The notes under the pieces were generated by a model. The model worked only from the letters and a program-made list of their open reading frames with translations, ran no database searches and had not been told where the DNA came from. Below, one piece after another: positions 45,389 to 63,991 of a DNA stretch of 64,000 nucleotides. The position numbers and the translations under genes were made by a program. The DNA comes from Mucilaginibacter psychrotolerans (GTDB taxonomy: Bacteria > Bacteroidota > Bacteroidia > Sphingobacteriales > Sphingobacteriaceae). Position 1 is the stretch's first letter. Each line of letters begins with the position of its first letter. Location: the NCBI RefSeq assembly GCF_004519315.1, contig NZ_SOZE01000006.1, forward strand, positions 186,001-250,000. Direction: 5' to 3'.

Positions 45389-48163
45389 TTAGTTGAATTT
45401 ATACCTCAAACCCAGCAGGTAGGTTTGGCCGTAGTAATCGCTGCGGATAATGGTGCGACCGTTTGAAACGATATTCTCCATCAGCTTGTCGTTCTCGGGA
45501 TTGGTTCCTTTTATGAAAAGCTTGGTTGGCGTATTAAGCAAGTTGCCTGCTTTTACAAATATGCTGATACCGCTCTTGAACCTCTTCTCGGCCGATGCAT
45601 CCATCTGGATGACACCTTGCTGCCACAGGTCGTTGTTGAGGAACTGCGATACGGTGTTGATACGCGGACCAGTGTAAGCACCTGCCACCTGTATATCCCA
45701 GCCTTTTTTGGTGTCTTTATACAATAACGACATGTTGGCGATATGCTCCGACTGGCCATAAAGCGGGCGCGACTGGTCTACCAAAAACGGTTCAATATCG
45801 CCGGTGGTGGCGTTTATCCTCCGGGATGTTTTTGGCGTGGTGATACGCGAATGTGTATAAGTGTAATTTGCCTTAACGCCTATTTTATTGAAGAACTTGA
45901 TATAATCCACCTCAGCACCGTAGTTCTTAGCTGTACCAAAGTTGCCCGGGCTGTAGTAGATATCCTGACCGCGCACGGCATCTGCCTGGAAAGTGTACTC
46001 GATAGGGTCTTTGATGTTTTTGTAGAAAGCACCCACCAGCAATATCTCAGATGCCCCAGGGAACAATTCGTATCGTAAATCGAAGTTATCGGCCAGGGCG
46101 CGTTTTAAGTTCGGGTTACCGCGTTCCTGGTATTCTTCGTTTACTACCTTGCTTGGTACAATTTCGTAAAAACCGGGGCGGTTAAGTGCCTTGTAGTAAG
46201 AAGCATGCAACTGCGATTTATCGGTTAAATGGTATTTTAAAGTTAAGCTTGGCAACACATCGGTGTACACCTGGCTGCCCTTAGGCTTTGATTCGCCCGC
46301 CGGGAACAACAGGTTGTATCCCTGGTCGGTATGCTCTACCCTGGCACCGCCTATTACATCGAGGTTGTTTGTGGTAAATTTGAACATACCATAACCGGCA
46401 CTGGTTTTTTCAGAAGCATCGTAGGTAAGCGGGTTGCTTACCGCGCCCGTTGGGTTGCTTACTACCAGGCTAAGGTCGGTGTAGTTGTTAAAATCTACGC
46501 CGTATTGCAAGCCCGCGTTGGCGGCAGTTGGCGCAAGTGTGTAATTATTGAAGAAGCTGCTGCGTTGCTTATCGCGGTAAAGACCGCCCACGGTAAAATC
46601 TACTTTTACGCCACCTATTGGCGCGGTGTAGGTAAGGTCTAAGTAACCCGCTTTGTCTTCGTCTGTATTGCGTTCCCAGCGGCGGTTTACCGGCGAAGTG
46701 TTCACCAGCGAAGTGCGTTTTTCCACGAAACCCTGGCGCAGGCCGTTCAGACTGATGGTGGTATTATCGGGCACCTCGTTCTGGGCAGTTGAATAAACGG
46801 CAGACCATTGTATCTTAAACCTATCGCCAAAAAGCTTATGATCGCCATGCAGGGTGCTGTTGTATATCTTCTGCTCGGTTAAACGGCTGCGGGTATCGTA
46901 GGTAAGTTCGGCGTTGCCTGCTGTTGGGTCGTAAACCCCGTTGTAAGATGTGCTTACGGCATCGCGTAGTTGCTGGTTCTTCAGATCTACGAATACATTG
47001 TATAAGCTCAGCTTGTTGTTTTTATCGAAGGCGTAATCAACTTTGCCGTGCAAGCCCAGGCGGGTTTGCTGCTCGGAGTACTGACGGTAGCTTTTGCTGG
47101 TGATAACGGCATAAGCGTCGGTTCCGTTTACGGCTGAGTTGTAGAACGTGCTGTTGCTGCCGCGGTAGGTATTCTGGTAGCTGCCCGCAATGATAACGCC
47201 CAGCTTGCTATCGAAGAACCGCTGGCCTAAAGATAAGCTACCGATAACGTTAGGAGCAGGTTTTTTGGAAGTGTAATCCAACGTGCCTTTAGTGAAATCG
47301 GCCTGAGTAGCAGTGTAAGTGCGGCCATGCAATTCATAAGGCGATTTGCGGTTGATGCCCGAAGCATCGAAGCTGGTGAAATCGCGATCGAAAAACAGCT
47401 GGCTGTAACCTGTAGCGATGTTGGCGTTCACCTGAAAATGATCCGGCGCGTTCTTCATCACCATGTTAACCGAACCACCGATGGCATCGCCCTCTAAGTT
47501 CGGGGTAAGGGTTTTGTACACCTCCAGCCTGTCCAGCAAATCTGCCGGGAACAGATCCAGCGGTACATAGCGGTATTTGTTATCCGGGCTCGGTATTTTC
47601 ACGCCGTTTACCAGGGTGTAATTGTAGCGTTTATCCATACCACGCAAAATGGCGTATTGGCCATCGCCGTTGCTGTTACGCTCTACCGATATACCTGAGA
47701 CGCGCTGGATCACATTGGCCACGGTTAAATCCGGCGATATCTCTATGGCGCGACCCGAAACGATGTTCATCACCTGCGTGGCGTTCTGCTCAATGCGTCG
47801 GGCATCGCGGTCGTTAGAGCCGCCTGTAGTGGCCCTTACCACCACCTCGCCTAAATCTTTAGAAGCAGATTCCATGTAGATTTTTACGTGGTCCATATCC
47901 TTGCTCACTACAATTTGCTGAACAACGGTTTGGTAAGTGATATAAGATATGCGGAGCGTTGCCGGACCAGCCTCCACATCCTTTATTTCGAAGGAGCCAT
48001 CCAGCCCGGTGCTGGTAGCCTTGCCTGTTTTCTCAAGCACCACGGTGGCACCCACCAGGGCCTCGCCCGACTTCTTGTCGTAAACGTGGCCTTTTATTTT
48101 AGCTGCGTTCGCTATTGCTGCGCAAAAAAGGAACGGAATAAAAAGGTATAAAAGTTTATTCAT
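45389..48163 (-). CDS. TonB-dependent receptor of the phytase operon
   Basis: A 924-residue outer-membrane receptor of the FecA/CirA style, not SusC. A signal peptide (AAIANA) is followed by a CarboxypepD_reg-like domain (IKGHVYDKKSGEALVGATV, about 22-105), a plug with NVIQRVSGISVERNSNGDGQ and LVNGVKIPSPDNKY, and a beta-barrel ending in a terminal LLGLRYKFN. It heads a three-gene operon with the beta-helix lipoprotein and phytase. The likely cargo is phytate or its lower inositol phosphates, or a chelated metal; this is inferred from gene order. Confidence 0.92.
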   Translation of the reverse strand: MNKLLYLFIPFLFCAAIANAAKIKGHVYDKKSGEALVGATVVLEKTGKATSTGLDGSFEIKDVEAGPATLRISYITYQTVVQQIVVSKDMDHVKIYMESASKDLGEVVVRATTGGSNDRDARRIEQNATQVMNIVSGRAIEISPDLTVANVIQRVSGISVERNSNGDGQYAILRGMDKRYNYTLVNGVKIPSPDNKYRYVPLDLFPADLLDRLEVYKTLTPNLEGDAIGGSVNMVMKNAPDHFQVNANIATGYSQLFFDRDFTSFDASGINRKSPYELHGRTYTATQADFTKGTLDYTSKKPAPNVIGSLSLGQRFFDSKLGVIIAGSYQNTYRGSNSTFYNSAVNGTDAYAVITSKSYRQYSEQQTRLGLHGKVDYAFDKNNKLSLYNVFVDLKNQQLRDAVSTSYNGVYDPTAGNAELTYDTRSRLTEQKIYNSTLHGDHKLFGDRFKIQWSAVYSTAQNEVPDNTTISLNGLRQGFVEKRTSLVNTSPVNRRWERNTDEDKAGYLDLTYTAPIGGVKVDFTVGGLYRDKQRSSFFNNYTLAPTAANAGLQYGVDFNNYTDLSLVVSNPTGAVSNPLTYDASEKTSAGYGMFKFTTNNLDVIGGARVEHTDQGYNLLFPAGESKPKGSQVYTDVLPSLTLKYHLTDKSQLHASYYKALNRPGFYEIVPSKVVNEEYQERGNPNLKRALADNFDLRYELFPGASEILLVGAFYKNIKDPIEYTFQADAVRGQDIYYSPGNFGTAKNYGAEVDYIKFFNKIGVKANYTYTHSRITTPKTSRRINATTGDIEPFLVDQSRPLYGQSEHIANMSLLYKDTKKGWDIQVAGAYTGPRINTVSQFLNNDLWQQGVIQMDASAEKRFKSGISIFVKAGNLLNTPTKLFIKGTNPENDKLMENIVSNGRTIIRSDYYGQTYLLGLRYKFN

Positions 48164-50156: not shown

Positions 50157-50966
50157 TTAACGCAATTTTTGCTGCTTTAAAAATGCAGCAAGCGCTGCGG
50201 GGTGGTCTGTTTGCAGACCTTTAAAACCCGTCTTCACAGCTTTGCTCCAGTCGGCGGTGCCTTCGGTGGCGCTTTGTATATCCGGCCAAACCGGAATGTC
50301 GCGGGTAGCGGCAAAGGCAAGCATATCCGGGTTGTACTGGCCATAATCGCCGTCGAGTAAATCGGGCCGGTACTTGTCGATGAATGTTTTCATGCCATCT
50401 ACTGTAGTAACACTATCGGGCAAGCTCAGCATCAGCGGCATTTTCGGTGCAACCTTACGCCAGCCGGTTAACTGTTTTGCGCTATTTATGTACACCAATA
50501 CCTGTTTTTCCATATGGTACTGTTGTATCATTTGATAGGCAACGGCCGGGTCGGCAGCTTTAAAATCAAGGTAGATATTGATTTTGTTTTTTGCCAGCTT
50601 TAGTATTTCGACAAATGTTGGTACATGATAGGTATTCACGCTATCACCACCCTTTAATTTAAGTTGCTGCAATTCGGCCAGCGTGAAACTGTTTACCGCT
50701 CCTTTCCCATTAGTCATCCGGTTCACCGTGGCGTCGTGCATGCTCACCAACTGGCTGTCTTTTGTAGTGCGCAGGTCTATCTCAATATAGTCAGCTTCGT
50801 TTTTTATAGCTTCGCGATAAGCTTCCAGGGTATTCTCAGGATAAATTACATGGTCGCCGCGATGGGCAATCACTATAAAATTATGTTTTGATTGAGGAAC
50901 CGAATTGGGTTTAAGCCAAATTAATGCAGCCGCAATGGCCACCGTAGCTATGGGAGAAAATTTCAT
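50157..50966 (-). CDS. Glycerophosphodiester phosphodiesterase, exported
   Basis: A 269-residue GDPD-family TIM barrel. After an N-terminal hydrophobic signal or anchor, the catalytic blocks are clear: VIAHRGDHVIYPENTLEAY (first His, Arg, Glu), YIEIDLRTTKDSQLVSMHD (Glu, Asp, second His) and INIYLDFKA. It hydrolyses glycerophosphodiesters to glycerol 3-phosphate and an alcohol, outside the cytoplasm. It is 61 bases after the phosphoesterase gene with a hairpin between (50990-51015). It fits a programme of phosphorus recovery from lipid head groups. Confidence 0.92.
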   Translation of the reverse strand: MKFSPIATVAIAAALIWLKPNSVPQSKHNFIVIAHRGDHVIYPENTLEAYREAIKNEADYIEIDLRTTKDSQLVSMHDATVNRMTNGKGAVNSFTLAELQQLKLKGGDSVNTYHVPTFVEILKLAKNKINIYLDFKAADPAVAYQMIQQYHMEKQVLVYINSAKQLTGWRKVAPKMPLMLSLPDSVTTVDGMKTFIDKYRPDLLDGDYGQYNPDMLAFAATRDIPVWPDIQSATEGTADWSKAVKTGFKGLQTDHPAALAAFLKQQKLR

Positions 50967-51027: not shown

Positions 51028-53772
51028 TTAGTTAACTATGGTGCCGGATGTCTTTTTTCCTTTTTGCTTGTAATGATCTTCGCGTTCCCGGTCTTCATCA
51101 TCCATATCAATGCTTTTTTTAATTTTTCGCCAATTGATATTTTTGCTGTAGCGCGCCATGGCTTTTTTAGTATCAAAGATGCGGGTATCGCTGTCCACAT
51201 AGGTGTATGGTGTAAAGTCTGGCTTATCGGTAAAAAAATCCTGCAGTAAAGAAGCAGTTACATCATACTGATTCACGTAAGGCACGCCTAAAATATTGTA
51301 AATAGTTTTAAGTATCGACCCAAAGTTGCCGTGGGTGTGGCTTACATAACCTCTTTTCACATACGGGCCTGCTAACATCAGTATTGACCGATGGGCATCA
51401 ATATGGTCCACACCACCCTGCGGGTCGTCTTCAGTGACAATTACCAGCATGTTCTTCCAGTATTTTGTATGCGACAGAAAATCGAGTATGCGCCCTACAG
51501 CCAGATCATTATCCGCCATATACGATTCTCTATATGGATAGCCATCTTTTGGCCTGATATCAGCACCATGGTCATTGGGTACCTGCATGGTTATCAGCGA
51601 AGGCATCTTCTTTTTGCCTGTTATCCACATTTTGGTAAACTCGCTTTTAAATTGTTCAACCCTAAACTGATCGGGTATATTGGTATTAAAGCCTGCATAG
51701 TTATGGCTGGTGCGGGTAAATAAAGCTTTTTGCATAGGCACCATCACGATATGGGCAGCGCCAGTGTTGGTATCTTCCCAATCTTCGCGCACGTGGGCCG
51801 TTTCGTTGGCTTCACCAAAGTTGTAAAAACCTATATTTTTGCGTTCAAGTGCTTCCCAAAGTCCTCCTGTTTCGGCATAATCTTCAGGATCCATACTGCC
51901 TGTAGAGCCCGGGAACCGTCTGCCCGGAGCGCTTGAAAACAGTTTAGCGGTTTTACTAACATCGGAGTTGGCTTCTACCCATTCGTTAGGGATAACGCCC
52001 ATCATCCAGTGGTGGCCATGAATAGAGGCATCGCTATCGCAATAATAATTATCGCTAAAAGCAAACTGGCCAGCAACCTTAATATGGTTTGGTGATACAT
52101 TGAGGTTAGGAAACTGTACGCGGGTAGCATCAGGCAGGGTGTACTCGCAATGCACGCCAAAACGAGCCAGCGTAGTATCGCCTTTAGCGTTTTGCATCTG
52201 CCCTAAAACTTCATCGTACGTGCGGTTCTCCTTAGTGATATACACAATATATTTAATGGGCGTGGCCGATGAACCGGGAAGTACGGGCAATGGGTTGTTA
52301 GTAGCAACATTGACGGTGCTGCTTGCAAACGTATTATCAATAACCTGTTTGGTATATGCCGCAAGTTGCACGGCACTAGGCATAGCAACTTTTTGAAAGG
52401 TGGCTAACTGGATATCGCCGATATAAGTACCCTGCGGCGGCGCAACAAAACCAGCTCCCCCGTTTGGCCCGGCTCCATATCCACGGCACGATGTAATGTA
52501 TAACTCATCTTCGTTGGCAGAGAGCTTAACCCTCGAAGCACCCCAGCCGGTAGGGATAAGTCCCCTGGTAACCCGTGAAGGTATATCAATCACTGCTACG
52601 GCATTAAAACCCAAAAGTGCGACATACAGTGTTTTTTCGTCTTTACTCAGGCTGATACCAAAAGGCAACAGGCCGCGAAATTTATCGATCCGGGCATCTA
52701 CCTTGATGGGTATATCTCCCAACAACCTATGGTTTTTATAATCGATAATGGTGATATTATCGTTTGTGGCGTTGGTTACGTAAGCATAATTACTGCCAAC
52801 GGCTATAGAGTTGGGGCTGGCGCCGCCGGTAACTTCAGCATCCTCCAGCATCTGACCAACCTGGTGGCCGGTTTTAAATTTATCGGTTACCTTATTCGTT
52901 GTTAAATCGATGGTGAAAACACTCATTGCGTCTGGCGATATTGGGCTGCCCACCCCAGGAATTTTCCTGCCTTCAACTACTGTACCTTCCCGTGATTGTT
53001 TGGTATTATCGCCATAAGGGTGCCTGGAAATCATGATCGAATCGGCATTTTTAGGGTTGGCACCACTTATCAGCGGATAAGCATACATGCCCACGTTTGC
53101 CACAAACGCCACTTTTTTATCAGGACTCAACGCCAGCCCAAAAGGCTGCCTCCCTACGTTTACAGATGCTGTTAGCTTTTTTGTGGCCAAGTCGATACGT
53201 ACCATACGGAAATTCCCCCTATCTAAAACTAACAACTCGTTTTTAGCTGGGTTATAGAGCAAATCGGAAGTGAAGCTATCTTCATAGTTTTTACCCCCAA
53301 CTTTCCCGTTCAATGATATCGAATCGATTTTGATAAATCTTTCGGCATCGTATCGTATAACCGCGCCATCATCGCCGCCGCTTAAGTACAAGGTTTTTGA
53401 ATCGGGCGAAAACGCAACGCCTAAAAACGATCCATTAGGTAGAGGGGAAGCAATTTTTTTGTCATACGATGGCACCCTTACGCTATTCATTGTTGCGATA
53501 TCAACCAGCGTAAGTACACCATTGTGCAGCGTTACCGCTTTTTTGCCGTCGGGAGATATGGATAATCCGAAAGGATCATGTGTGATGCGAATGGTTTTAC
53601 CGGCAGGCGTTATAAACCGTCCGCTTGGCAAAACAGAAATACCAGCTGTATCTATTTTGCAATACTGGCCAAGGCCAGGCACTTGTAAAATATTTACTTG
53701 CTGCTGCGCATACGTAAGCACTGGCAGGCAAAACCATACTATCGCCAACAAAAATCTTATTCTTAAACCCAT
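51028..53772 (-). CDS. YncE-like propeller fused to phosphoesterase (alkaline phosphatase superfamily)
   Basis: A 914-residue secreted two-domain protein. A signal peptide (PVLTYAQ) is followed by a seven-bladed YncE/NHL-type propeller (about 30-455; PFGLALSPDKKVAFVANVG, PNSIAVGSNYAYVTNATNDN). A phosphoesterase domain (PF04185 type) begins at IKYIVYITKENRTYDEVLGQ near 520, where the Asn in ENRT sits at the metal site. It continues with HHWMMGVIPNEW, DHGADIRP and TEDDPQGGVDHIDAHRS. The domain resembles phospholipase C/acid phosphatase enzymes, so hydrolysis of phosphoesters is likely. It lies between another phosphatase and the GDPD in the SusC-led operon. Confidence 0.88.
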   Translation of the reverse strand: MGLRIRFLLAIVWFCLPVLTYAQQQVNILQVPGLGQYCKIDTAGISVLPSGRFITPAGKTIRITHDPFGLSISPDGKKAVTLHNGVLTLVDIATMNSVRVPSYDKKIASPLPNGSFLGVAFSPDSKTLYLSGGDDGAVIRYDAERFIKIDSISLNGKVGGKNYEDSFTSDLLYNPAKNELLVLDRGNFRMVRIDLATKKLTASVNVGRQPFGLALSPDKKVAFVANVGMYAYPLISGANPKNADSIMISRHPYGDNTKQSREGTVVEGRKIPGVGSPISPDAMSVFTIDLTTNKVTDKFKTGHQVGQMLEDAEVTGGASPNSIAVGSNYAYVTNATNDNITIIDYKNHRLLGDIPIKVDARIDKFRGLLPFGISLSKDEKTLYVALLGFNAVAVIDIPSRVTRGLIPTGWGASRVKLSANEDELYITSCRGYGAGPNGGAGFVAPPQGTYIGDIQLATFQKVAMPSAVQLAAYTKQVIDNTFASSTVNVATNNPLPVLPGSSATPIKYIVYITKENRTYDEVLGQMQNAKGDTTLARFGVHCEYTLPDATRVQFPNLNVSPNHIKVAGQFAFSDNYYCDSDASIHGHHWMMGVIPNEWVEANSDVSKTAKLFSSAPGRRFPGSTGSMDPEDYAETGGLWEALERKNIGFYNFGEANETAHVREDWEDTNTGAAHIVMVPMQKALFTRTSHNYAGFNTNIPDQFRVEQFKSEFTKMWITGKKKMPSLITMQVPNDHGADIRPKDGYPYRESYMADNDLAVGRILDFLSHTKYWKNMLVIVTEDDPQGGVDHIDAHRSILMLAGPYVKRGYVSHTHGNFGSILKTIYNILGVPYVNQYDVTASLLQDFFTDKPDFTPYTYVDSDTRIFDTKKAMARYSKNINWRKIKKSIDMDDEDREREDHYKQKGKKTSGTIVN

Positions 53773-53797: not shown

Positions 53798-54889
53798 TTA
53801 TTTACCTGTTAAAACGCTTTTTATAGCATCACCAACCTCGTGGCCGGCATTGGCTTTAAAATCGAGGCCGAGCAATAGTGCCATGGTTTGGGCCAATTGC
53901 TTGTGGTAAGTGGTGCCGGTAAGCACCTCGCCTGTTGGGGCCGTGTCCGGGCCAATAACCGCAAACCAGGTTTGCTCTGCACCCACCACATCCGAGCCGT
54001 GATGGCGCCAGCTATCCAACTGCGCATAGCCGCGGCCATGGTCGCAGGTGATGATGAGCGTTGTATTGTTTTTGTAGAAGGGATCGGCTTGTACCATTTC
54101 CCAAAGGTTTTTAATGAAGCCATCTTCCTGCTTTGCAAATTCCAAATACGATTTGTAGTTGCCGGCGTGGGCCATATCGTCTGTCTCGTCGAACGACATG
54201 AACAATACGCGCGGTTTGTACTGTTTCAGGTATTCCTTGCTGTACTCATAAGTAACAAAATCTGAGCGGGTGCTGTCGTTTACATAGTGCGGTACGTTTT
54301 GCTGCAACTCATTCAGGTATTTTAAACGCGCGTTGGCATCGGCATTCTTCAGCCCTGAATAGCCTGAATACACCGGCAAGCCCGAACGGTTTACGTTCAA
54401 AATCTGCGGAAAACGCTCCCATGATGAGAACGCGATTACTTTACCCTCGAAACCCTTTTGCTTGTTGATGTACTCCAGCACGTTCATGTTGGGATTCACT
54501 ATAGGGTCGTTGGTGTTCATGCGCACATCCGGGAAACCTGTGAAGATTTCGTTATAGCCCGGGTAAGAAAATTTATAGGGATTGGCAATTTCGTCTTTAC
54601 CGCCTGCATCGCGATTGCCGTATAGCTGGCCTTGCTTTGCCACGGTGTTCCATAAAAACGGGAACAGGATTGCCCTGCGTTCCTGCGGGGTTGCGGCCCA
54701 GTATCTTTTCTTTACGTCCTCCTTATCATTGGTGAATTTGGAATTAATGAGCGCCGAATCGGCACCGCGGTAAACTTCCTGCCAGCGCATACCATCCAGC
54801 GTTACAATGATGAGGTTTTTTGTTTTCCGCTGCGCCATAGCCGGCGATACGGCCAAAGCTGCCAGCAATACAAATGCGAGTTTTTTCAT
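53798..54889 (-). CDS. Alkaline-phosphatase-superfamily protein, exported
   Basis: About 363 residues; MKKLAFVLLA at 54889 gives the signal peptide (SPAMAQ) and is preferred to the ATG six codons before. Metal-site blocks typical of the nucleotide pyrophosphatase/alkaline phosphatase clan are present: IIVTLDGMRWQEVYRG, a likely nucleophile Ser or Thr in FSYPGYNEIFTG, FMSFDETDDMAHAG, TCDHGRGYAQ and DSWRHHG. It probably cleaves a phosphate or phosphonate ester in the periplasm. Phosphonoacetate hydrolases (PhnA) belong to the same clan, but I see no residue that singles out that activity. It follows SusD by 75 bases. Confidence 0.82.
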   Translation of the reverse strand: MKKLAFVLLAALAVSPAMAQRKTKNLIIVTLDGMRWQEVYRGADSALINSKFTNDKEDVKKRYWAATPQERRAILFPFLWNTVAKQGQLYGNRDAGGKDEIANPYKFSYPGYNEIFTGFPDVRMNTNDPIVNPNMNVLEYINKQKGFEGKVIAFSSWERFPQILNVNRSGLPVYSGYSGLKNADANARLKYLNELQQNVPHYVNDSTRSDFVTYEYSKEYLKQYKPRVLFMSFDETDDMAHAGNYKSYLEFAKQEDGFIKNLWEMVQADPFYKNNTTLIITCDHGRGYAQLDSWRHHGSDVVGAEQTWFAVIGPDTAPTGEVLTGTTYHKQLAQTMALLLGLDFKANAGHEVGDAIKSVLTGK

Positions 54890-54907
54890 GGTGTTTTTTT
54901 TAAACAA

Positions 54908-54964: not shown

Positions 54965-56539
54965 TTATTTAACTATCCAAAGGGCCTGGTAAATATCGTC
55001 CTTGCCGCCAAACTGGCTTTGCACTGCTGCATTGTAGTTGGTTGCATTAGCCGTACGCTCGTTAGCCGGGTACTGGTAACGCTGCGGGATAACACCACCA
55101 TCGGTGTTGCCCGGGCCGATATCAAATGCCGGGATACCTGTGCGGCGCCATTGGTAATAAGCTTCCTGACCAGAGTTACGGGCAAATGCCAGGTATTTCT
55201 GGGTTAAGATTTGCTTAAGACCATCGGCAGTGTTGCCCGCGTATTTAACAGCTGGCTGCGCGTAGTAGGTAGCATAGCTAAAAGTAACAGGGTATGATAC
55301 GTCATCGCCTAATAAACCACCGCTTTTTTGGAAAGTAACCGTGTTAGCACCATCGTTTACACCGTAGAAGCCAAAATCGGAATAGATACCGTTTTTGTAC
55401 CATGCTTCGGCATCGCCGGTAACCCAGCCCTGGTTTATTGCTTCTGCAATATTAAAGCACATTTCGGGATAGCCTACGATAAAGGTGTTTTCGCCGGTTA
55501 GGGTTTCGTAATAACGGTGACGGCCAATCAATGATATTTTACCAGCCTGTACCAGGTTAGTCATAGTACTTTGATCCTGGCCCGAAGCGCCGCCCACGAA
55601 TGAACGGAAATCGGTATCTCCAAAACCAAGGCCACGTGCAGGCTCGGCCACCTTCATAGCACGCAAATCGTTTAAAGATGCAAGCGTGTTAAGGTAAGTA
55701 GCAGCCATGTTATAACGTGTAGCATCGTTACCAAAGTTACGCGGGCTGTTTGGGTATATGCTGAATACGCCATCATAAACGTATTGCAGGTTATCATCCA
55801 TACCGCTCAGCAAAGGGTATTTTGTTGGATTGTTGATGATTGACGCGAATTGCGCTTTTACGTTCAACTCAGCATCTGTTGCTTTCTTGCTCAGGTTAAT
55901 CAGCACGCGCAGGCGGTAAGCGTTAACCACTTTTTGCCATTTGGTAAGGTCGCCCCTAAAGTAGAAATCGTATTTGCTATCAACCACGTAAGTACCGGTA
56001 GTAAGCTTGTTTACGGCATTCATTTCGCCAAGGTCTTTGTTAGCATCTTCTAACAAAGCCAAAGCATTGATGAACACTTGCTTTTGCGAATCGTACTTAG
56101 GCGTAAGGCCGTCTAAGCCTTTCAAAGCGTCGGTCATTGGCACATCGCCAACCTTCATGGTCATCCTCACAAAGAAATAAGCTCTGAAAAATTTGGCAAG
56201 CGCCAGGTATGGCTTAGATAGCGTAGCGTTTAGCTTGTTAGACTCTGTTTCCATCGCAACAACGTTGTTCAGGTTACTGTAATCTAAACCGGTGCTGCCT
56301 GTCCAATACTTGTTGTTATCATAATAAGTATAATTACAAGCCGTGTACTGGTTTTGGCGTTCTACCTGGTTGTAAGCCGACTCAAAAATAGCCGTCTCGA
56401 TATTTGGGAGCAACAAGGCCGGCGACAAACCTGTTACAGGCTGGTTTTTGTTTTGCACATCCTGGTCGAATTCTTTTTTACAGCCCGATGCCGCTACAAT
56501 GATGGCTAAAGAGGCTATAGTTATTTTTAATGATTTCAT
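54965..56539 (-). CDS. SusD-like nutrient-binding lipoprotein (SusD_2 type)
   Basis: A 524-residue lipoprotein (MKSLKITIASLAIIVAASGC). The fold shows SusD features: NVVAMETESNKLNATLSKPY, ALAKFFRAYFFVRMTMKVGDV with PMTDAL, NAYRLRVLINLSKK, YPEMCFNIAEAINQGW and a C-terminal GQEAYYQWRRTGIPAF with IPQRYQYPANE. This layout is the SusD/RagB-like type 2 group, often seen with transporters for peptides or small organic compounds rather than long glycans. It pairs with the SusC at 56575 and precedes two phosphatases, so a phosphorus compound is the likely ligand. Confidence 0.93.
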   Translation of the reverse strand: MKSLKITIASLAIIVAASGCKKEFDQDVQNKNQPVTGLSPALLLPNIETAIFESAYNQVERQNQYTACNYTYYDNNKYWTGSTGLDYSNLNNVVAMETESNKLNATLSKPYLALAKFFRAYFFVRMTMKVGDVPMTDALKGLDGLTPKYDSQKQVFINALALLEDANKDLGEMNAVNKLTTGTYVVDSKYDFYFRGDLTKWQKVVNAYRLRVLINLSKKATDAELNVKAQFASIINNPTKYPLLSGMDDNLQYVYDGVFSIYPNSPRNFGNDATRYNMAATYLNTLASLNDLRAMKVAEPARGLGFGDTDFRSFVGGASGQDQSTMTNLVQAGKISLIGRHRYYETLTGENTFIVGYPEMCFNIAEAINQGWVTGDAEAWYKNGIYSDFGFYGVNDGANTVTFQKSGGLLGDDVSYPVTFSYATYYAQPAVKYAGNTADGLKQILTQKYLAFARNSGQEAYYQWRRTGIPAFDIGPGNTDGGVIPQRYQYPANERTANATNYNAAVQSQFGGKDDIYQALWIVK

Positions 56540-56574: not shown

Positions 56575-59500
56575 TTAGTAAACCACGTTTAAGTTGAAAC
56601 CGAAACTACGGGTAGTTGGGGTTTGCAGGTTGTACTCCAGGTTGGTTTGGCCAAGCTGGTTACGGCCCGGATACTGGTCAACGTCGATATCTTTGTACCC
56701 TGGTTTGAAGAAATACAGCAGGTTGCGGCCTACGATAGAGAACTCAACACGTGATAATGATAATTTCTTTACCAGGTTGGTTGGCAACGAGTAACCAATT
56801 ACAACTTCGCGCAGCTTTGCGTAAGTTTTGCTGATAACGGTATGCTGTGGGTCGTTGTAGAAGTTGTTTACGTAATCCTGCACATATTTTACAGGAGTAG
56901 TGTTTGATACGAATTGCAGCTGGCTGTAGTTAGAGATAACGCCTGTCAATGGGTCGAACTGTATGGCAGGGCTGCCTGGTGCAAGGGTTACGCCATCATG
57001 ACCCAATATTGGGGTACCATCGCTGTAAACTGCGCCTTTAAAGCCCGGATCGCCCCAGTGCTGCGATTCGTATAGACGAGCCGCGCCAATAACGCCTTCG
57101 TCTGTAACCTGGCCACGGCCGCCTTCAACAAGCTTGCGGTAAACCCTATCCTGTATTTTACCACCTACCATACCATCAAACTGGAACGATAGCGTAAATT
57201 GCCTGTAACGGAATTTGTTATTGATACCCCAGCTAAAGTCAGGGTCGGCGTTGCCCAAGTATTGCGATTTTGGCAAGTACCTTGGCAAGCCCGATGCATC
57301 GTGTATCACTTTACCATCCTGGGTCATGGCTTCGTATTTACCGTATAATTTATCAACACGGTCGCCTTTTACAAAAACCTGGTCGCCCGATACGATACCG
57401 GTTTGGCCTTCTGCAAAAGAATCGTAAACTTCTTTGTAAGTACCTACGTTCATCAACACATCCCATTTGAAGTTTTCACCAATAATAGGGCTGCCGTTAA
57501 TAGAGAACTCGTAACCGGTACGTTTGGTTGATAAACCATTGGTAACTAAAGTTTGTGCGCTACCGTTGGTTTCAGACAATTGTTGGTAGAACAATTGCGG
57601 ACCATCTTTATACTGGTAGTAAGTACCTGCAAAACCTAATCGGTCGTGCAGGAAACGCATCTCCAAACCACCTTCGTAGTTGGTACGGCTGTATGGTTTA
57701 ATAGCCGGGCTTATAGCTGTAGTTGGTGCATAAGCTGCGGTAACGTTACCGTAAGAGGTACCCAACGAGTAGGCTGGCTGTGCGGTTTGGTAGTTAGGGC
57801 CGCCATAGGTAGTTTGGTAAGCATCGCCGTAGCCAACAGGGTAACCGGCAGGGCCAATGTAAGTAGATGTACCGCCACTTTTTACGTTAGCATAGCTGGC
57901 GCGTAATTTCAGGAAAGAAATCACTTCGGGCAGTTTCACGTAATCAGAAATAGGGGTTGCAATACTAACTGAAGGATAAAAGTACGACTGGTTTTGCAGT
58001 GCAGATGATTTCTCGCTGCGGCCTGTTGCAGATATAGTGAAGTAATTTTTGTATGAGACGTCGGCAGATGCATAAGCACTGGTAGTGATTAGGCTTGAGC
58101 CGAAGTTATAAGCCCTAAGCGGGTTGATGGTGTTTTGGAACGTGTACACATCATGTATTAGCAACTGATCTGTTGATACGAAGGTTGAAGTGTATTTAAG
58201 ATTGCGCAAGGTACCACCAGCCAAAAGGTTAACCGAGATGCCTGTTTTAGCGATATCGTTTAAATTGTATTTAGCAATTAAGTCGGTGTTGTTTTCGAAG
58301 ATGTCGCGGCGGTCTTCGCGGTAGTTACCATGGCCATGCTCATCTCCATAAGGGTGTGCCGAAAATGGCTCCTTCTCTGTCCTCAACAAATTGTAAGTGG
58401 TGATGTTGCTCCTCAGCATAATGTCGAAATCTTTAGTAGGGCTGTAAGTAAACGAACCCCAGCCATAGATATCGTTTTTGTAATGGCCGCGTGTCCATTC
58501 GTAGCTCTGGAACCATGGGTTATGGTAACGTTTATACTCCACGAATTTCGATTGGATACCTTCTTTACCAGGCTGCCAGTAATCACGCATATCGTTGATG
58601 TTCCAGTCGGCACCAGTCCATATATCAACGTTATAGATAATACTGTTTGGGCCGTAGCTTACATCCGGTACGTTATCTGTGTACTGGCGGTTGTAGTTCA
58701 GGTTACCTTCAACCTTAATTTGCTTGGTAAGGTTGTAGCTGGCCATTAAGTTAAAGTTAACGGTATTCAAACCGGTATTTGGCGTAATACCACGCTGATA
58801 ACCATGCGTAACCGACATCCTAATGGTTGATTTATCCGAAGTTGAAGAAATGCTTAAGTTATTGCTGGTTAGCAAACCTGTTTGCAAAAAGCCTTCAAGG
58901 TTGTTTACGCCACGGGCAACCCATGGGGTTGGTTTAATGTGGCCTGTAAAGGTAGAACCATCGGCAAATGTGGTTACGTAGGTTTTGGTTGGGTCGTACT
59001 CGCCATCGTATTGTGGCAACATCAAACCTGCGTTAAGCCTTGGGCCCCAAACATCGTAATCACCATCGTTAACGCCACCGCCGGCGCCATCGCCAAATGC
59101 GTATTTGTCGTTATCGCCACCACCGTAGTTGTTCTGTACTTTAGGAATAGCAATGAAGCCCCTGTTGAACTGGGTGCTGGAGTTAAGCTCGATAGTGAAG
59201 CCTTTGGTAGCACTTTTTGCGCGTTTGGTGGTTATTAAAATAGCACCGTTTATACCACGGCTACCATATAAAGCAGCAGCGGTTGGGCCCTTTAATATAG
59301 TATAGGTATCTATATCATCTGCCGATATGTTTTTGGTATCGGAGTTGATGGGGATACCATCTACCACATAAAAATCAAGCGGCGAACCACGCAGCAACAC
59401 GGTTGGTGCAGCAAGTAACTCCTGGTTTATACCAATGTTTAAGCCAGCAACTTTACCGGTAAGGCTATTGATAGCATTCGGCTCGCGTGCCTTCACCAGG

Positions 59501-59898
59501 TCGGCACCACGCACTTCCTGTACCGAGTAGCCCAATTTCTTGGTCTCTTTCTTTACACCCAACGCGGTTACTACTACCTCGTTAAGTACCTTGCTTTCGG
59601 CTTTGAAGTTTAGGTTATATACAGCATCATCGCCAACGGCAATTTCCTGCGCTGCATAGCCTATAAATTTAAAAATCAGAACCTGGCCTTTTGCGGCGTT
59701 GATGCTGTAATGACCGTTTACATCTGTTACCGTACCCTGCTGGGTGCCTTTGATCGACACGGTAACCCCCGGTAAGGGCTGCTGTGTTTCATCGGTAACT
59801 TTACCTGTAATTTTTGATTGCGCCAGCAACATGCCGGGCAGCAAACAAAACATTACAACCGTTAAAACGGCCTTTAAATGTTTGTAAATCTGTTTCAT
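56575..59898 (-). CDS. SusC/RagA-family TonB-dependent transporter (phosphorus locus)
   Basis: A 1107-residue outer-membrane transporter. It has a signal peptide (GMLLAQ), a CarboxypepD_reg-like domain (ITGKVTDETQQPLPGVTVSI), plug with LNEVVVTALGVKKETKKLGY, the signature GSRGINGAILITTKRA, and a long barrel ending in FGFNLNVVY. It heads the operon SusC, SusD, phosphatase, phosphoesterase and probably GDPD. Its promoter region carries the 41-base block shared with the DUF5690 transporter gene, which argues for import of an organophosphonate or phosphonolipid-derived compound. The cargo assignment is inference. Confidence 0.93.
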   Translation of the reverse strand: MKQIYKHLKAVLTVVMFCLLPGMLLAQSKITGKVTDETQQPLPGVTVSIKGTQQGTVTDVNGHYSINAAKGQVLIFKFIGYAAQEIAVGDDAVYNLNFKAESKVLNEVVVTALGVKKETKKLGYSVQEVRGADLVKAREPNAINSLTGKVAGLNIGINQELLAAPTVLLRGSPLDFYVVDGIPINSDTKNISADDIDTYTILKGPTAAALYGSRGINGAILITTKRAKSATKGFTIELNSSTQFNRGFIAIPKVQNNYGGGDNDKYAFGDGAGGGVNDGDYDVWGPRLNAGLMLPQYDGEYDPTKTYVTTFADGSTFTGHIKPTPWVARGVNNLEGFLQTGLLTSNNLSISSTSDKSTIRMSVTHGYQRGITPNTGLNTVNFNLMASYNLTKQIKVEGNLNYNRQYTDNVPDVSYGPNSIIYNVDIWTGADWNINDMRDYWQPGKEGIQSKFVEYKRYHNPWFQSYEWTRGHYKNDIYGWGSFTYSPTKDFDIMLRSNITTYNLLRTEKEPFSAHPYGDEHGHGNYREDRRDIFENNTDLIAKYNLNDIAKTGISVNLLAGGTLRNLKYTSTFVSTDQLLIHDVYTFQNTINPLRAYNFGSSLITTSAYASADVSYKNYFTISATGRSEKSSALQNQSYFYPSVSIATPISDYVKLPEVISFLKLRASYANVKSGGTSTYIGPAGYPVGYGDAYQTTYGGPNYQTAQPAYSLGTSYGNVTAAYAPTTAISPAIKPYSRTNYEGGLEMRFLHDRLGFAGTYYQYKDGPQLFYQQLSETNGSAQTLVTNGLSTKRTGYEFSINGSPIIGENFKWDVLMNVGTYKEVYDSFAEGQTGIVSGDQVFVKGDRVDKLYGKYEAMTQDGKVIHDASGLPRYLPKSQYLGNADPDFSWGINNKFRYRQFTLSFQFDGMVGGKIQDRVYRKLVEGGRGQVTDEGVIGAARLYESQHWGDPGFKGAVYSDGTPILGHDGVTLAPGSPAIQFDPLTGVISNYSQLQFVSNTTPVKYVQDYVNNFYNDPQHTVISKTYAKLREVVIGYSLPTNLVKKLSLSRVEFSIVGRNLLYFFKPGYKDIDVDQYPGRNQLGQTNLEYNLQTPTTRSFGFNLNVVY

Positions 59899-59940
59899 TA
59901 ATTAATTGTTTTTGGAGTGAAAAGTTGTCGTTTTTGTGAG

Positions 59941-59981
59941 AGCAATACTAAACTTTGTTTATTATTTATAAACTAAGTTTA
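59941..59981 (-). promoter_or_regulatory. Promoter/operator of the phosphorus-locus SusC operon
   Basis: In the sense of SusC it reads from TAAACTTAGTTTATAAAT to GTTTAGTATTGCT and includes a GTTTAT-N3-ATAAAC-type palindrome. It ends on a -7-like TAGTATTG (59943-59950, minus). It matches 61432-61472 at 36 of 41 positions in the same orientation to its gene. Its end is 43 bases before the SusC start. It is a probable target of the XRE-cupin regulator at 60832. Confidence 0.72.
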
Positions 59982-60093
59982 CATTAACTAAACTTTATCA
60001 CTTTGTGTACTTAGGATTAAGCACAAGGGGAGATGGTAACAATTATATGATAGCGGCATGATAAAAACTTAACATGCCGCCAAGGATGGCGTT

Positions 60094-60663
60094 TTAATTG
60101 CGGCGCAGGTGGGCAAGCGCAAGCTGTTTCAAATGTGCAACGTTATCTACCGGGATGTGCTCCAGCTTGGCTTCATCGTCCCAGTAACGCATACGCACAA
60201 TAAGTTCGGCATCGGGGTGCTGCTCAAAAGCTTCTGCTTCGGCAGCACTCATTACGCCGCCCTGAAAGCTGAGGGTAACTTTGCTGGCCGGCGAAAGTTT
60301 ATCGTAATACTCGGGGTATTTATAGGTGAGGTAGCGCTTAGCTATTACGTGCCCGTTTACCAGGTTAGCCATACGTGCCGAAAAGCCCCGTTCGATCAAA
60401 TAATCAGACCCCAGCTTTTCATGATCTACATTACCCATGCCTGCCATACTCTCGGCAGTAGCGCATAAGTGCCCTATATCATGAAAAAAGGCCGCTAATA
60501 TAACCTCTGCATCGTAGCCCTCCGCTTCGGCGAGGGCAGCAGCTTGCGACATGTGTTCTAACTGCGAAACCGGCTCGCCGATGTAATCTTCATTACCGTG
60601 TAATTCGTACAGCGCAAAAACTTCGTCTACTATTTCTTCGGGGGTGCGTATTTCTGTAGGCAT
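60094..60663 (-). CDS. PhnZ-like HD-domain mixed-valent diiron oxygenase
   Basis: A 189-residue cytoplasmic HD-fold protein. The residues known from PhnZ, which turns (R)-2-amino-1-hydroxyethylphosphonate into glycine and phosphate, can be placed: Tyr27 and Glu30 in DYIGEPVSQLEH, His37, His61-Asp62 in FFHDIGHL, His81 in NVDHEKLG, His105 in VNGHVIAKRYL and Asp162 in YWDDEAK. Their spacing is the same as in PhnZ within one or two residues, as I recall it. This separates it from ordinary HD phosphohydrolases. The usual partner PhnY (2-oxoglutarate dioxygenase) is not in the window. It is divergent from the XRE-cupin gene. Confidence 0.88.
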   Translation of the reverse strand: MPTEIRTPEEIVDEVFALYELHGNEDYIGEPVSQLEHMSQAAALAEAEGYDAEVILAAFFHDIGHLCATAESMAGMGNVDHEKLGSDYLIERGFSARMANLVNGHVIAKRYLTYKYPEYYDKLSPASKVTLSFQGGVMSAAEAEAFEQHPDAELIVRMRYWDDEAKLEHIPVDNVAHLKQLALAHLRRN

Positions 60664-60831
60664 AGGGGCATGTTTATGGCCAAAGTAACGGGTTTTAATA
60701 TTATGGCAAAATTAAGTCTTCATGATATAATTTGTTAAACGCAGGAGTTGTTAAAATAAGCTAAATACCTTGCCTCCTTTAATTATATTATCTACTTTTC
60801 CAGCGTTCAACAAACAATTGCAGCATTCAGC

Positions 60832-61410
60832 ATGGAAGATGACGTACTGATACAGATCAGTAACCGCATAAAAGATAAGCGGCGCGAGAAAAACATAACC
60901 GTACAGGAACTGGCCATAAGGGCCAACGTAAGTAAGGGCCTTATTTCGCAGATAGAAAACAGCCGCACCATCCCCTCGCTGGTTGTGCTGATAGATATTA
61001 TTAAGGCGCTGGAGATAGATATGAATGTTTTTTTTAAAGACATCCACTCAGGCGACGGCAATTCCCCCCTCATCGTCCGCCGTAAGGCCGATTATGAGCA
61101 CTTCGAGAAAGAGCATGCCGAGGGTTTCCACTACCAGCGCATTTTTACCCAGTCGATAAAAAGTTCTACGGTAGATATTGTGATACTGGAACTGCAGCCA
61201 GATGCGCACCGCCCGCAGGTAGAAACCGAGGCCTACGAGTATAAGTACGTCCTCTCCGGCACCATAGAATACCAGTTCGGCGAAAAATCGTACACGCTTG
61301 CCGAAGGTGATTCGATGCTGTTTGATGGGCGCATACCGCATACGCCAAAAAACACAGGCACCACAAAGGCATGCATGCTGGTCGTCTATTTCTTTGAGGC
61401 AAAGGCATAG
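60832..61410 (+). CDS. XRE-family regulator with C-terminal cupin domain
   Basis: A 192-residue transcription factor. An HTH_3 domain covers about residues 7-62 (VQELAIRANVSKGLISQIEN, SRTIPSLVVLIDIIKALEID). A cupin_2 domain covers about 115-188 (YKYVLSGTIEYQFGEKSY, LAEGDSMLFDGRIPHTPKN). This design (PuuR/SutR type) usually senses a small metabolite. The gene sits between the PhnZ-like gene and the transporter operon, and the shared 41-base block starts 22 bases after its stop codon. It is the best candidate regulator of both promoters that carry the block. Confidence 0.9.
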   Translation: MEDDVLIQISNRIKDKRREKNITVQELAIRANVSKGLISQIENSRTIPSLVVLIDIIKALEIDMNVFFKDIHSGDGNSPLIVRRKADYEHFEKEHAEGFHYQRIFTQSIKSSTVDIVILELQPDAHRPQVETEAYEYKYVLSGTIEYQFGEKSYTLAEGDSMLFDGRIPHTPKNTGTTKACMLVVYFFEAKA

Positions 61411-61431
61411 ACCGTTTAAGATTTCTTAACT

Positions 61432-61472
61432 TAAAATTAGTTTATTATTAATAAACATAGTTTAGTTTTGCT
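61432..61472 (+). promoter_or_regulatory. Promoter/operator of the transporter-oxidoreductase operon
   Basis: It contains AGTTTATTATTAATAAAC, a 7-bp inverted repeat with a short centre, flanked by further AGTTTA units. It ends with TAGTTTTG (61463-61470), an exact TAnnTTTG -7 element. It matches the SusC upstream block at 36 of 41 positions. The transporter ATG is 76 bases downstream. Confidence 0.75.
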
Positions 61473-61547: not shown

Positions 61548-62864
61548 ATGGCCATACCCATTGTTACTCAACTAAAAGCAAAAGTAGCTAACTGGCCTTA
61601 TTGGCTCATATCTATACTGGCGGCAATTGCGGCTTTCGGGGCATACACCTCTATGTACGCTTTTCGCAAAGCGTTTACTGCCGGCACATTTTTAGGCGAA
61701 CAATATTGGCATATCGATTATAAGGTATGGCTGGTAATTGCGCAAATTTTTGGCTACATGCTGAGCAAATTTTACGGCATCCGCTTTATTGCCGAAATAC
61801 GGGGCGCGAAACGCGGCATAACCATATTGGCGCTGGTTGGCGTTTCGTGGTTGGCACTGTTGGCTTTTGCGGTTACGCCTGCGCCTTATAATATCATTTT
61901 TCTTTTTATTAACGGTTTCCCGCTCGGGCTGATATGGGGCTTGGTTTTTGGCTACCTCGAAGGTCGCCGCTCTACAGAGTTTATGGCTGCAGTGCTTTCT
62001 ATCAGCTTTATCTTTGGTTCGGGTTTCGTAAAAACGGTAGGACAAACACTGATGCTCGTTTACCATGTAAACGAATATTATATGCCCTTTGCAACAGGGG
62101 CGCTGTTTGTATTACCGCTTATTTTGTTTGTAATGATGCTGGAGCTGATGCCGCCGCAAACGCCGGAGGATATCGCGCTGCGCACCGAGCGGCTGCCCAT
62201 GACTAAGCTGGAACGTAAACAGTTTATTGCCCGTTTCTTACCAGGCATTATACTTACGCTTTTTATTTATGTACTGATAACCATTATGCGCGATATACGC
62301 GACAACTTTAACGTAGAGATATGGAACAGCCTGGGCATAACAGACCGCACCATTTACGCCCGGATTGACACACAAATATCTGTTATTGTATTGGCAGCCA
62401 TGAGCTTGCTTATCCTCGTAAAAAAGAACCTGCGGGCGTTCAGCCTCATCCACCTCATGATCATTGTGGGTTGTTTGTTGGCGGGTGGTTCAACAGTAAT
62501 GTTTTCGCACAACATCATCAGCCCTATTGCGTGGATGACCATGGTTGGCCTTGGCTTATACCTTGTGTATGTGCCTTACAACGCCATATTTTTCGAACGC
62601 CTGATAGCTACCTTCCATTATAAAAGCAATGTTGGCTTTTTAATTTACCTGGCCGACTCTATAGGGTACCTGGGCAGTGTAAGCGTATTGCTGGTTAAAG
62701 AACTTGGCAGGCCAACCATCAGCTGGGCCGAATTTTTTAAGGAAGGTGCCATTGTTGTATCTATCGTAGGCGGCGTTTGCGGCTTACTGTCACTCCTGTA
62801 TTTTTACCGCTCGGCCCGCAATAAAGCAGTGGCCGATGCAGCCTCAAATATCGTAACTTTATGA
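61548..62864 (+). CDS. DUF5690-family MFS-like inner-membrane transporter
   Basis: A 438-residue protein with about 12 hydrophobic helices (YWLISILAAIAAFGAYTSMY, ITILALVGVSWLALLAFAV, LPGIILTLFIYVLITIM and others), with NGFPLGLIWGLVFGYLEGRR in the conserved loop after the fourth or fifth helix. It matches the DUF5690 family as I recall it, which often occurs beside phosphonate genes in Bacteroidota. It probably carries a phosphonate or its product across the inner membrane, with no ABC phosphonate importer seen nearby. Its stop overlaps the start of the oxidoreductase (ATGA), showing translational coupling. Confidence 0.85.
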   Translation: MAIPIVTQLKAKVANWPYWLISILAAIAAFGAYTSMYAFRKAFTAGTFLGEQYWHIDYKVWLVIAQIFGYMLSKFYGIRFIAEIRGAKRGITILALVGVSWLALLAFAVTPAPYNIIFLFINGFPLGLIWGLVFGYLEGRRSTEFMAAVLSISFIFGSGFVKTVGQTLMLVYHVNEYYMPFATGALFVLPLILFVMMLELMPPQTPEDIALRTERLPMTKLERKQFIARFLPGIILTLFIYVLITIMRDIRDNFNVEIWNSLGITDRTIYARIDTQISVIVLAAMSLLILVKKNLRAFSLIHLMIIVGCLLAGGSTVMFSHNIISPIAWMTMVGLGLYLVYVPYNAIFFERLIATFHYKSNVGFLIYLADSIGYLGSVSVLLVKELGRPTISWAEFFKEGAIVVSIVGGVCGLLSLLYFYRSARNKAVADAASNIVTL

Positions 62865-63991
62865 GTATCCCATCAGCAATCGTAATCGGTGCCGGCATTG
62901 TAGGCCTGGCCACCGCACGTGCCCTTGCCACACGCGGTTACGAGGTAACCGTTTTTGAACGTAACGAACGTGCCGTAGGCGCATCTATCCGTAATTTTGG
63001 TATGGTGTGGCCAATAGGGCAGCCAAACGGGCCGCTATTCGAACGGGCCATTTTATCGCGCAGCATATGGAAACAAACCTGTATGGAAGCCGGCATATGG
63101 CACGATGAGGTAGGCTCTCTGCACGTTGCCTATCATGACGACGAACTGGCTGTAATGGAGCAATATGCCGACATGAACCAGGGCTACCGCGATTGTGCAC
63201 TGCTTAGTCCGCAACAAACTTTGGCTAAATCAGAAGCCGTAAACCCAAACGGATTAAAGGGCGCATTATGGAGCAGTGCCGAAATGATTGTAGAGGCACG
63301 CGTAGCCATCGGCAAGATTGCGCAGCACCTGGCCGATAAATACGACGTTAAGTTCAATTGGAACACCGCTATAAGCCATGTGCAGCAAAATACCGTAGTA
63401 AGCGGTAATAGTAGCTGGCAGGCCGATGAGATATACGTTTGCAGCGGTGCCGATTTTGAAACGCTGTATCCCGAGCTTTTCAGTTCGTTCAAAATAACCA
63501 AGTGCAAGCTGCAGATGATGCGGCTGGCAGCGCAGCCCGAAGACTGGCGCATTGGCCCTGCCATTTGCGGCAGTTTAAGCATGGTGCATTACCCCGGTTT
63601 CCATGCTGCACCTGCAATAGCCGCCCTGCGCAGCCGCTATGAACAGGAGTACCCCGAATATCTTAAATGGGGCATACATGTAATGGCCGCGCAGAACCAC
63701 CTGGGCGAACTTACCGTTGGCGATTCGCATGAGTATGGCCTGGTGCACGACCCCTTTGATAAGGATTTTATTAACCAAATGATATTGGCTTACTTAAAAA
63801 CTTTCACCAACTTTAAAGATACCCGAGTTATACAAACCTGGCACGGCATATTACCCAAAATGACCACCGGCCAAACCGAACTGGTGTTGGATGCAGAACC
63901 CGGCGTAACCATCATCAACGGGCTTGGCGGCAACGGCATGACGCTCTCCTTCGGCCTTTGCGAGCAAATTATCGCCGCGAAGCACGGTTAA
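62861..63991 (+). CDS. FAD-dependent oxidoreductase, TIGR03364-like (aminophosphonate)
   Basis: A 376-residue DAO-family flavoenzyme. The FAD-binding GxGxxG is in AIVIGAGIVGLATARALATRG's start (Gly10-Gly15) and VFERNERAVGASIRNFGMVW carries the Glu for ribose plus the conserved RNFGMV segment. The C-terminal VTIINGLGGNGMTLSFGLCE contributes to the flavin site. RNFGMVWP and WHGILPKMTTGQTELV fit the TIGR03364 group, which is linked to phosphonate loci and proposed to oxidise aminophosphonates or their N-methyl forms. It follows the transporter with a 4-base overlap. A phosphonatase-like gene may follow outside the window. Confidence 0.85.
   Translation: MSIPSAIVIGAGIVGLATARALATRGYEVTVFERNERAVGASIRNFGMVWPIGQPNGPLFERAILSRSIWKQTCMEAGIWHDEVGSLHVAYHDDELAVMEQYADMNQGYRDCALLSPQQTLAKSEAVNPNGLKGALWSSAEMIVEARVAIGKIAQHLADKYDVKFNWNTAISHVQQNTVVSGNSSWQADEIYVCSGADFETLYPELFSSFKITKCKLQMMRLAAQPEDWRIGPAICGSLSMVHYPGFHAAPAIAALRSRYEQEYPEYLKWGIHVMAAQNHLGELTVGDSHEYGLVHDPFDKDFINQMILAYLKTFTNFKDTRVIQTWHGILPKMTTGQTELVLDAEPGVTIINGLGGNGMTLSFGLCEQIIAAKHG

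Follow-up and report, generated by a model that had tools for sequence, protein, structure and literature searches.

This work concerns a 64,000-nucleotide stretch of Mucilaginibacter psychrotolerans DNA (contig NZ_SOZE01000006.1, positions 186,001 to 250,000 of the forward strand), hereafter called the window, and a promoter block shared by two of its predicted operons, one headed by a SusC-type outer-membrane transporter gene and the other by genes for a DUF5690 membrane protein and the oxidoreductase HpnW. We propose that the block is probably the operator array of an aminophosphonate-utilization regulon, which would be silenced by an XRE-cupin repressor encoded between the two operons and opened when an inducer releases it. 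From sequence comparison, a shared regulon with a defined operator is well supported, the XRE-cupin protein is very likely its regulator, and repression with release is the likely mode of control.

Tandem operators in the window and the genome

The blocks at 59941-59981 (minus strand) and 61432-61472 (plus strand) are identical at 36 of 41 bases when each is read toward its gene, as first reported in the original prediction; in 2000 Markov shuffles of both upstream regions the best ungapped 41-base match was 29. The AGTTTAT...ATAAAC motif described for them is present in both, and the TAnnTTTG-like -7 element is exact in the plus copy (TAGTTTTG, 61463-61470) and one base off in the minus copy (TAGTATTG, 59950-59943). 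The true unit is a 17-bp palindrome, GTTTA-N7-TAAAC, of which the window holds four exact copies, two per gene, in a 20-bp phase. Before the SusC gene, on the minus strand, these are P1 (59957..59973, about -35 to -19) and, 20 bp from it, P0 (59977..59993), which overlaps an upstream TTAA repeat; a third-register half-site, GTTTAGTATTGC (59937..59953), covers the -7 element, with a putative start at about 59938. On the plus strand, the promoter of the DUF5690 and HpnW genes carries P1 (61440..61456, about -35 to -19) and P2 (61460..61476, about -15 to +2), the latter containing the -7 element, with a putative start at about 61475.

Within the 6.42-Mb draft genome (109 contigs, 99.8% complete), a single exact palindrome occurs at 23 places, compared with 18 for a reversed control pattern, and was rejected as too weak a genome-wide predictor; with the single palindrome near control level, only the tandem form discriminates. 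The exact tandem, GTTTA-N7-TAAAC-N3-GTTTA, is found at only three places, each before a phosphonate-type operon, two in the window and one on another contig (C8:25516-25548). Elsewhere in the genome the tandem occurs with one mismatch at C8:153968, C11:133245, C22:7934 and C25:63400, and the search at two mismatches was discarded, since it fell to control level (16+22 vs 22+15). Many unrelated genome-wide hits, which the original prediction had named as evidence against itself, are thus not seen for the tandem form; this part stood, while the single palindrome remains near its control.

The third tandem directly precedes a second DUF5690 gene, followed by the genes of an HpnZ-like dehydrogenase (TIGR03366, 285.3 bits vs a cut-off of 328.1, hence HpnZ-like only) and of a PhnX-like phosphonatase that belongs to TIGR03351 (224.1 bits vs 218.9). 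The 17 bases of P2 recur identically before this distant operon. Searched with the C8 phosphonatase, the genome gave a single match at E 1e-20 or better, which was that same gene; therefore, the oxidoreductase and the phosphonatase of the proposed pathway lie here on separate contigs under a common operator. The phosphonatase type found inside the G043 cluster scores 199.2 bits with the same model, below its cut-off of 218.9.

Distribution among relatives

The search for the operator covered 120 genomes, that of the window included, 73 of them from one genus. The exact tandem form gave 117 hits, spread over 45 of the 120 genomes (43 of the same genus); the reversed control pattern gave 8. The N7 centre of the palindrome varies while palindromy is kept. 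Absence of conservation, the other outcome said to refute the proposal, was not encountered, the tandem form being kept in relatives; it also stands, in exact form, before each of the two operons of the window, in agreement with the claim of an operator common to both.

Gene maps of the fetched loci place the operator before SusC genes, before HAD-DUF5690-HpnW or DUF5690-HpnW genes, and before the distant phosphonatase genes. Of the 97 exact palindromes in 41 regulator loci, 90 fell inside 260-bp upstream regions of target genes, which make up 26.1 of 763 kb (SusC genes below 44% identity were not taken as targets). For the distant type of phosphonatase (at least 57% identity), the operator, exact or with one mismatch, precedes the gene or operon in 18 of 21 loci.

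The regulator was sought in these 120 genomes too and counted as present when the search gave a match of E 8.8e-78 or better; weak matches in G019, G024 and G030, and in G009 a fragment of 40 residues at the end of a contig, were counted as absent. The 59 genomes of the genus with a completeness of at least 90% divide into 36 with both regulator and exact tandem operator, one with the regulator only, none with the operator only, and 22 with neither (Fisher 2.6e-15, a value that ignores shared ancestry). The regulator-only genome, G027, has an imperfect operator copy; among the genomes with neither, G024 and G072 still show imperfect single sites. Over all 73 same-genus genomes the counts are 40, 2, 3 and 28, respectively, and the three operator-only genomes are 58-71% complete.

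A further, named set was built with a regulator profile, which matched 398 encoding stretches; the best 80 of the 398 were used, and they come mainly from Mucilaginibacter and Pedobacter, and also from Chitinophaga, Olivibacter and Parapedobacter. An exact operator lies beside the regulator in 74 of these best 80 loci, and their 958 kb contain 171 operator sites, where three control palindromes gave two each. Species already represented among the 120 genomes account for many of these records, and the set is therefore not independent of those genomes. Taken with the genome counts, these loci bear out the proposed link between the block and the XRE-cupin gene. Moreover, HpnW and phosphonatase genes of Chitinophaga sp. 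YR627 have the operator in front of them and adjoin a regulator 69% identical to that of the window. In G026 and Pedobacter nutrimenti the operator stands before SusC genes that share only 35-38% identity with the SusC gene of the window, and the same locus encodes a regulator 64-66% identical.

Two alternatives can be weighed on these data. A duplicated promoter, or a general AT-rich promoter composition with no regulator behind it, would agree with the AT-rich sequence and the -7 element shared by the promoters; the shuffles, the control palindromes, the genome-wide count and the palindromy kept around a varying N7 all contradict it, and we find it barely credible. It is also very unlikely that the operator belongs to another regulator to which the XRE-cupin gene is merely linked. 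Linkage and shared ancestry do inflate the co-occurrence, G024 and G072 retain imperfect sites without the gene, and 44 of 48 loci have no exact operator upstream of the XRE-cupin gene; on the other side, the exact tandem is missing from all 22 gene-less genomes of the genus at least 90% complete, the operator travels with the gene into Pedobacter and Chitinophaga, and related regulators accompany the same operator before other SusC genes.

The XRE-cupin protein

The proposed regulator gene (60832..61410, plus strand) encodes an N-terminal HTH_3 and a C-terminal Cupin_2 domain, the build of the XRE-cupin transcription factors, and its co-occurrence with the operator adds a second trait of that family, a palindromic site in the promoters of neighbouring genes, seen here as an association of sites. 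Its AlphaFold model consists of five helices and then a beta barrel (predicted local distance difference test, pLDDT, 88), and the top Foldseek match is 1y9q, an HTH_3 regulator of Vibrio cholerae, with E 5e-14 but a template modelling (TM) score of 0.45. PuuR is the best NCBIfam match (PRK09943.1), at 43.6 bits against a 211-bit cut-off, which places the protein outside that equivalog. Foldseek also ranked HppE and other phosphonate-acting cupin enzymes (HEPD, MPnS and Psf4) high; a second aligner tied HppE and Psf4 with unrelated cupins, and the fold ranking is therefore not taken as evidence for a phosphonate ligand.

Promoter architecture and predicted mode of control

With the -7 box placed at -12 to -5 (PMC9723704, in excerpt), P2 falls at about -15 to +2 and P1 at about -35 to -19. 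We aligned 94 promoters (41 DUF5690-type, 41 SusC and 12 distant), identical promoters being counted once and those without an operator-like anchor being dropped; operator conservation within this set is thus by construction, because of the anchor selection, whereas that of the TTAA repeat treated below is not. A common core of TAAAC-N3-GTTTA followed by GTATTG or GTTTTG was apparent. Both palindromes are exact in 13 of the 41 DUF5690-type promoters, and 40 of the 41 have at most three mismatches over P1 and P2. In each class at least one of the core promoter elements lies under a complete palindrome, the position expected of a repressor, and sites on the -33 and -7 elements give a geometry that fits repression and release by an inducer. 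The XRE-cupin proteins of Pseudomonas aeruginosa are described as inhibitors, most likely occluding the promoter (PMC7901475, in excerpt). The original prediction had one regulator turning on capture and breakdown together; its shared regulation stands, and its turning on gives way to repression in view of the sites on the -33 and -7 elements and the precedent of the family.

Two genomes bear on the sign of control. G024 and G072 lack a regulator orthologue (best match 26% identical, or none at E 1e-10), and both have full-length HAD, DUF5690 and HpnW frames, with the -7 element kept and the palindromes damaged: P1 has one mismatch and P2 three in G024, and P1 four and P2 one in G072 (totals of 4 and 5). 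It is unlikely that the XRE-cupin protein is an activator that switches the operons on when substrate-bound. Coordinate operators on both promoters would suit such a role, as would the absence of a clear TTG from the -33 element in many copies; the sites, however, overlap the -33 and -7 elements and the predicted start, the family precedent is repression (PMC7901475, in excerpt), and intact frames and -7 elements beside damaged palindromes in the genomes without an orthologue speak against it, these being two cases compared with an anchor-selected set.

Under the repressor reading, a dimer of the XRE-cupin protein would bind each 17-bp palindrome, and dimers spaced by roughly two turns of the helix along the same face would cover the -33 and -7 elements and the start site, shutting out RNA polymerase. 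An aminophosphonate, or an intermediate of its breakdown, could occupy the cupin domain and release the repressor, so that the three operons would open together. SusCD and the secreted phosphodiesterases would then serve release and capture at the surface, the DUF5690 transporter and the FAD oxidoreductase import and conversion to phosphonoacetaldehyde, and the distant operon of DUF5690, dehydrogenase and PhnX-like genes the cleavage of the carbon-phosphorus (C-P) bond.

Several observations weigh against this reading. Not all promoters carry complete palindromes over both elements: of the 41 SusC promoters, 39 have an exact P1 but no more than a half-site over the -7 element, and in the distant operons P2 is exact in all 12 while P1 is mostly degenerate. 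Three distant phosphonatase operons (G056, G020 and G059) have no site at up to one mismatch, and only scattered ones at two. Six of the best 80 named loci lack an exact site, among them L351, L352 and L355, whose 66-67% identical homologues may be paralogues, and no operator was found in the Olivibacter and Parapedobacter loci of that set. Beside SusC genes, XRE-cupin paralogues 52-54% identical (L143 in G045, C4, and L144 in G022, C11) showed no exact operator. The cupin site of the regulator is atypical, neither of the two motif-1 His positions being His in alignment A1, and the species counts are not mutually independent. Finally, many local repressors have a site of their own, and here just 4 of 48 loci have an exact operator upstream of the regulator.

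Autoregulation was rejected on the same count, the exact operators within 200 bp upstream of the regulator being those of L110, L123, L128 and L145. In the window, the divergent upstream region of the regulator and the HD-domain oxygenase gene (60664-60831) contains no exact operator. Since that region is common to both genes where they are divergent, neither clearly belongs to the regulon, and the PhnZ-like oxygenase gene may have other control.

A possible phosphate input

Upstream of the operators, a TTAA-N7-TTAA repeat has its second copy exactly 37 nucleotides before the -7 element in 67 of the 94 promoters (85 within one mismatch), while exact pairs at any other offset occur in none or one. 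By class, the exact repeats at -37 comprise 33 DUF5690-type, 30 SusC and 4 distant promoters. The named set gave the same offset in 112 of 136 promoters (129 within one mismatch), with no exact pair at 36 other offsets, a control from which -26, -37, -48 and -59 were excluded. The two promoters of the window have the repeat with one mismatch each: at 59984..59998 on the minus strand for SusC (second TTAA at 59987-59984, the first differing by one base) and at 61415..61429 on the plus strand for DUF5690 (TTTA...CTTAA, first copy one base off).

With no more than one mismatch, a related pattern, TTAAC-N6-TTAAC, is present in 13 of 20 fetched loci upstream of the gene preceding pstS. In L257-L272 it stands at about 2370-2660, and five loci read CTTAACATTAAGRTAAT; three Pedobacter DUF5690 promoters carry CTTAACATTAAGGTAG. 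The gene preceding pstS had no Pfam match in the one copy tested. On the strength of these loci the upstream element was read as a possible PHO box, and TTAAC-N6-TTAAC is a candidate for the PHO box of the genus. Promoters of the PhoB type are alike in having 11-bp direct repeats upstream of the promoter, here also near the pst operons of the genus. In Escherichia coli the repeat is CTGTCAT, compared with TTAAC here, where the link to PhoB is putative. The 11-bp repeats are shared with 13 of the 20 pst loci and absent from the species' own pst operon, and the scores of a position weight matrix (PWM) are poor. That own operon (G000:C24:93071, L203) lies after a P-type ATPase-like gene, judged from its translation, unlike the type seen in many relatives, and the candidate PHO box was not found there.

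These repeats raise the possibility of a two-input gate, in which the XRE-cupin repressor would keep its role and PhoB, bound at the upstream 11-bp TTAA repeat, would be required as well, the operons opening only under phosphate shortage with phosphonate at hand; we regard the case for and against it as evenly balanced. It would explain the fixed position at -37 in both promoter sets and the shared pst pattern, including the copies in five loci and three Pedobacter promoters; PhoB-like regulators were found in 31 of 31 genomes searched, and the SusCD-like PusCD of Flavobacterium is induced by phosphate depletion (PMC8115612, in excerpt). Against it, other offsets also score when one mismatch is allowed (85 of 94 at -37, 56 at -26 and 27 at -15). 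A PWM from 12 pst sites, themselves chosen by the same TTAAC pattern, has its best match at -37 in 29 of 41 promoters of the DUF5690 type and in 30 of 41 of the SusC type, but among the 12 distant promoters in only 2, with poor absolute scores (means of -1.5, -1.8 and -7.9, respectively). This matrix was set aside as support for the regulon, as position agrees in two of three promoter classes and scores do not. Furthermore, the repeat is missing from 6 of the 20 pst loci and from the own pst operon, all PhoB matches fall under the family cut-off with OmpR-type paralogues numerous, and no Bacteroidota PHO box appeared among the literature matches listed.

We put forward tentatively, as somewhat less than evenly probable, a wider promoter grammar in which a -7 element inside a 17-bp repressor palindrome, 20-bp steps and a PHO box at fixed distance would form a compact AND gate for short phosphate and present phosphonate. 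PhoB and the XRE-cupin protein would compete for bases where the PHO box of the SusC promoter overlaps the outermost palindrome, and the arrangement would have moved between genera together with the pathway, recruiting unrelated SusCD pairs.

Comparison with described systems

The XRE-cupin repressors PuuR of E. coli and, among others, PauR, PsdR and ErfA of P. aeruginosa (PMC7901475, in excerpt) are alike in their HTH_3 and Cupin_2 build, in a gene adjoining its targets, in a palindromic promoter site and in metabolic targets. According to the same excerpted source, the P. aeruginosa members except PauR have one or two adjacent targets; here, by contrast, there are three operons, one of them distant, with tandem operators in a 20-bp phase, phosphonate genes and a Bacteroidota -7 element built into the palindrome. 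The Flavobacterium PUS/PusCD systems (PMC8115612, in excerpt) also have a SusCD pair beside organophosphorus enzymes, and the SusCD, phosphodiesterase and phosphonate enzyme genes described here match the PUS concept, a likeness at the level of the concept. Unlike here, that excerpted account describes induction by phosphate depletion and neither an operator nor an XRE-cupin regulator.

PbfC and PbfD enzymes form phosphonoacetaldehyde by oxidizing N-methyl-aminoethylphosphonate and, in certain cases, aminoethylphosphonate (PMC10590968, in excerpt). The hydrolytic aminophosphonate pathway of that account shares with the present system a TIGR03364 oxidoreductase and a PhnX-like phosphatase (TIGR03351); in the system described here, unlike that one, the two enzymes are encoded on different contigs and linked through a common operator. 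In the main text of that study the word stem "regulat" has 0 occurrences. A regulator of aminophosphonate use in soil Bacteroidota was not found in the open-licence literature searched, and the regulator papers among the matches listed made no mention of aminoethylphosphonate. The kinds of part are known; among the matches listed, their combination and the assignment to phosphonates appear new to the open-licence literature searched.

For the use of aminophosphonates by soil Bacteroidota, the present data provide an operator and a regulator that can be tested, and they join outer-membrane capture by SusCD, a transporter-like DUF5690 family and C-P cleavage in one predicted regulon. The operator may also serve as a sequence handle for finding further phosphonate genes, and the hierarchy between phosphate and substrate control becomes a question that promoter mutations can address.

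Genes of the window and further loci

The gene sets claimed for the two sides were recovered. On the minus strand lie the SusC/RagA TonB-dependent transporter (56575..59898, TIGR04056), a SusD-like lipoprotein (54965..56539, PF12771), a Phosphodiest-family enzyme of the type I phosphodiesterase/alkaline phosphatase superfamily (53798..54907, PF01663), a protein with beta-propeller and phosphoesterase parts (51028..53772) and a glycerophosphodiester phosphodiesterase (GDPD; 50157..50966, PF03009). On the plus strand lie DUF5690 (61548..62864) and the FAD oxidoreductase HpnW (62861..63991), a member of TIGR03364 (427.3 bits vs a cut-off of 285.1) and of the family of PbfD1 (PMC10590968, in excerpt). 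Between the blocks, the XRE-cupin gene is as predicted, with HTH_3 and Cupin_2, and the PhnZ-like gene (60094..60663, minus strand) holds only as a relative of the HD-domain oxygenases, its TIGR03276 score of 209.7 bits being slightly below the 214.6 cut-off.

DUF5690 is proposed as an inner-membrane transporter on its family match, an AlphaFold model built from alignment A3 (mean pLDDT 88, predicted TM-score 0.86) and Foldseek. The model has the fold of the major facilitator superfamily, with the human SLC37 glucose-6-phosphate transporters nearest at a TM score of about 0.65, a value that allows a statement at fold level only; a search of open-licence papers found none on the family, which has no known function. 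Judged from the translations, 45389-48163 holds another TonB-dependent receptor-like gene; a TPR-type protein is encoded upstream of it, and no exact operator lies nearby.

Outside the window, exact tandem hits within genes in L156, L159 and L162 look like chance, and G086, from another family, has a regulator 42% identical with one exact palindrome at the start of its gene. In the G045 and G022 paralogues, the helix-turn-helix region is very similar to that of the regulator. Locus L140 (G026:C1:3445000-3464900) has sites at 15568, 16865 and 17059, with SusC (35% identical), phosphodiesterase and calcineurin-like phosphoesterase genes downstream and a second XRE-cupin gene that shares 64% identity with that of the window, and is perhaps a second regulon using the same operator. 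In L157 (G060:C1:934000-945000), an exact operator at 5068 precedes the gene of an 827-residue phospholipase C-type phosphoesterase (PF04185, PF05506), a possible further member of the regulon.

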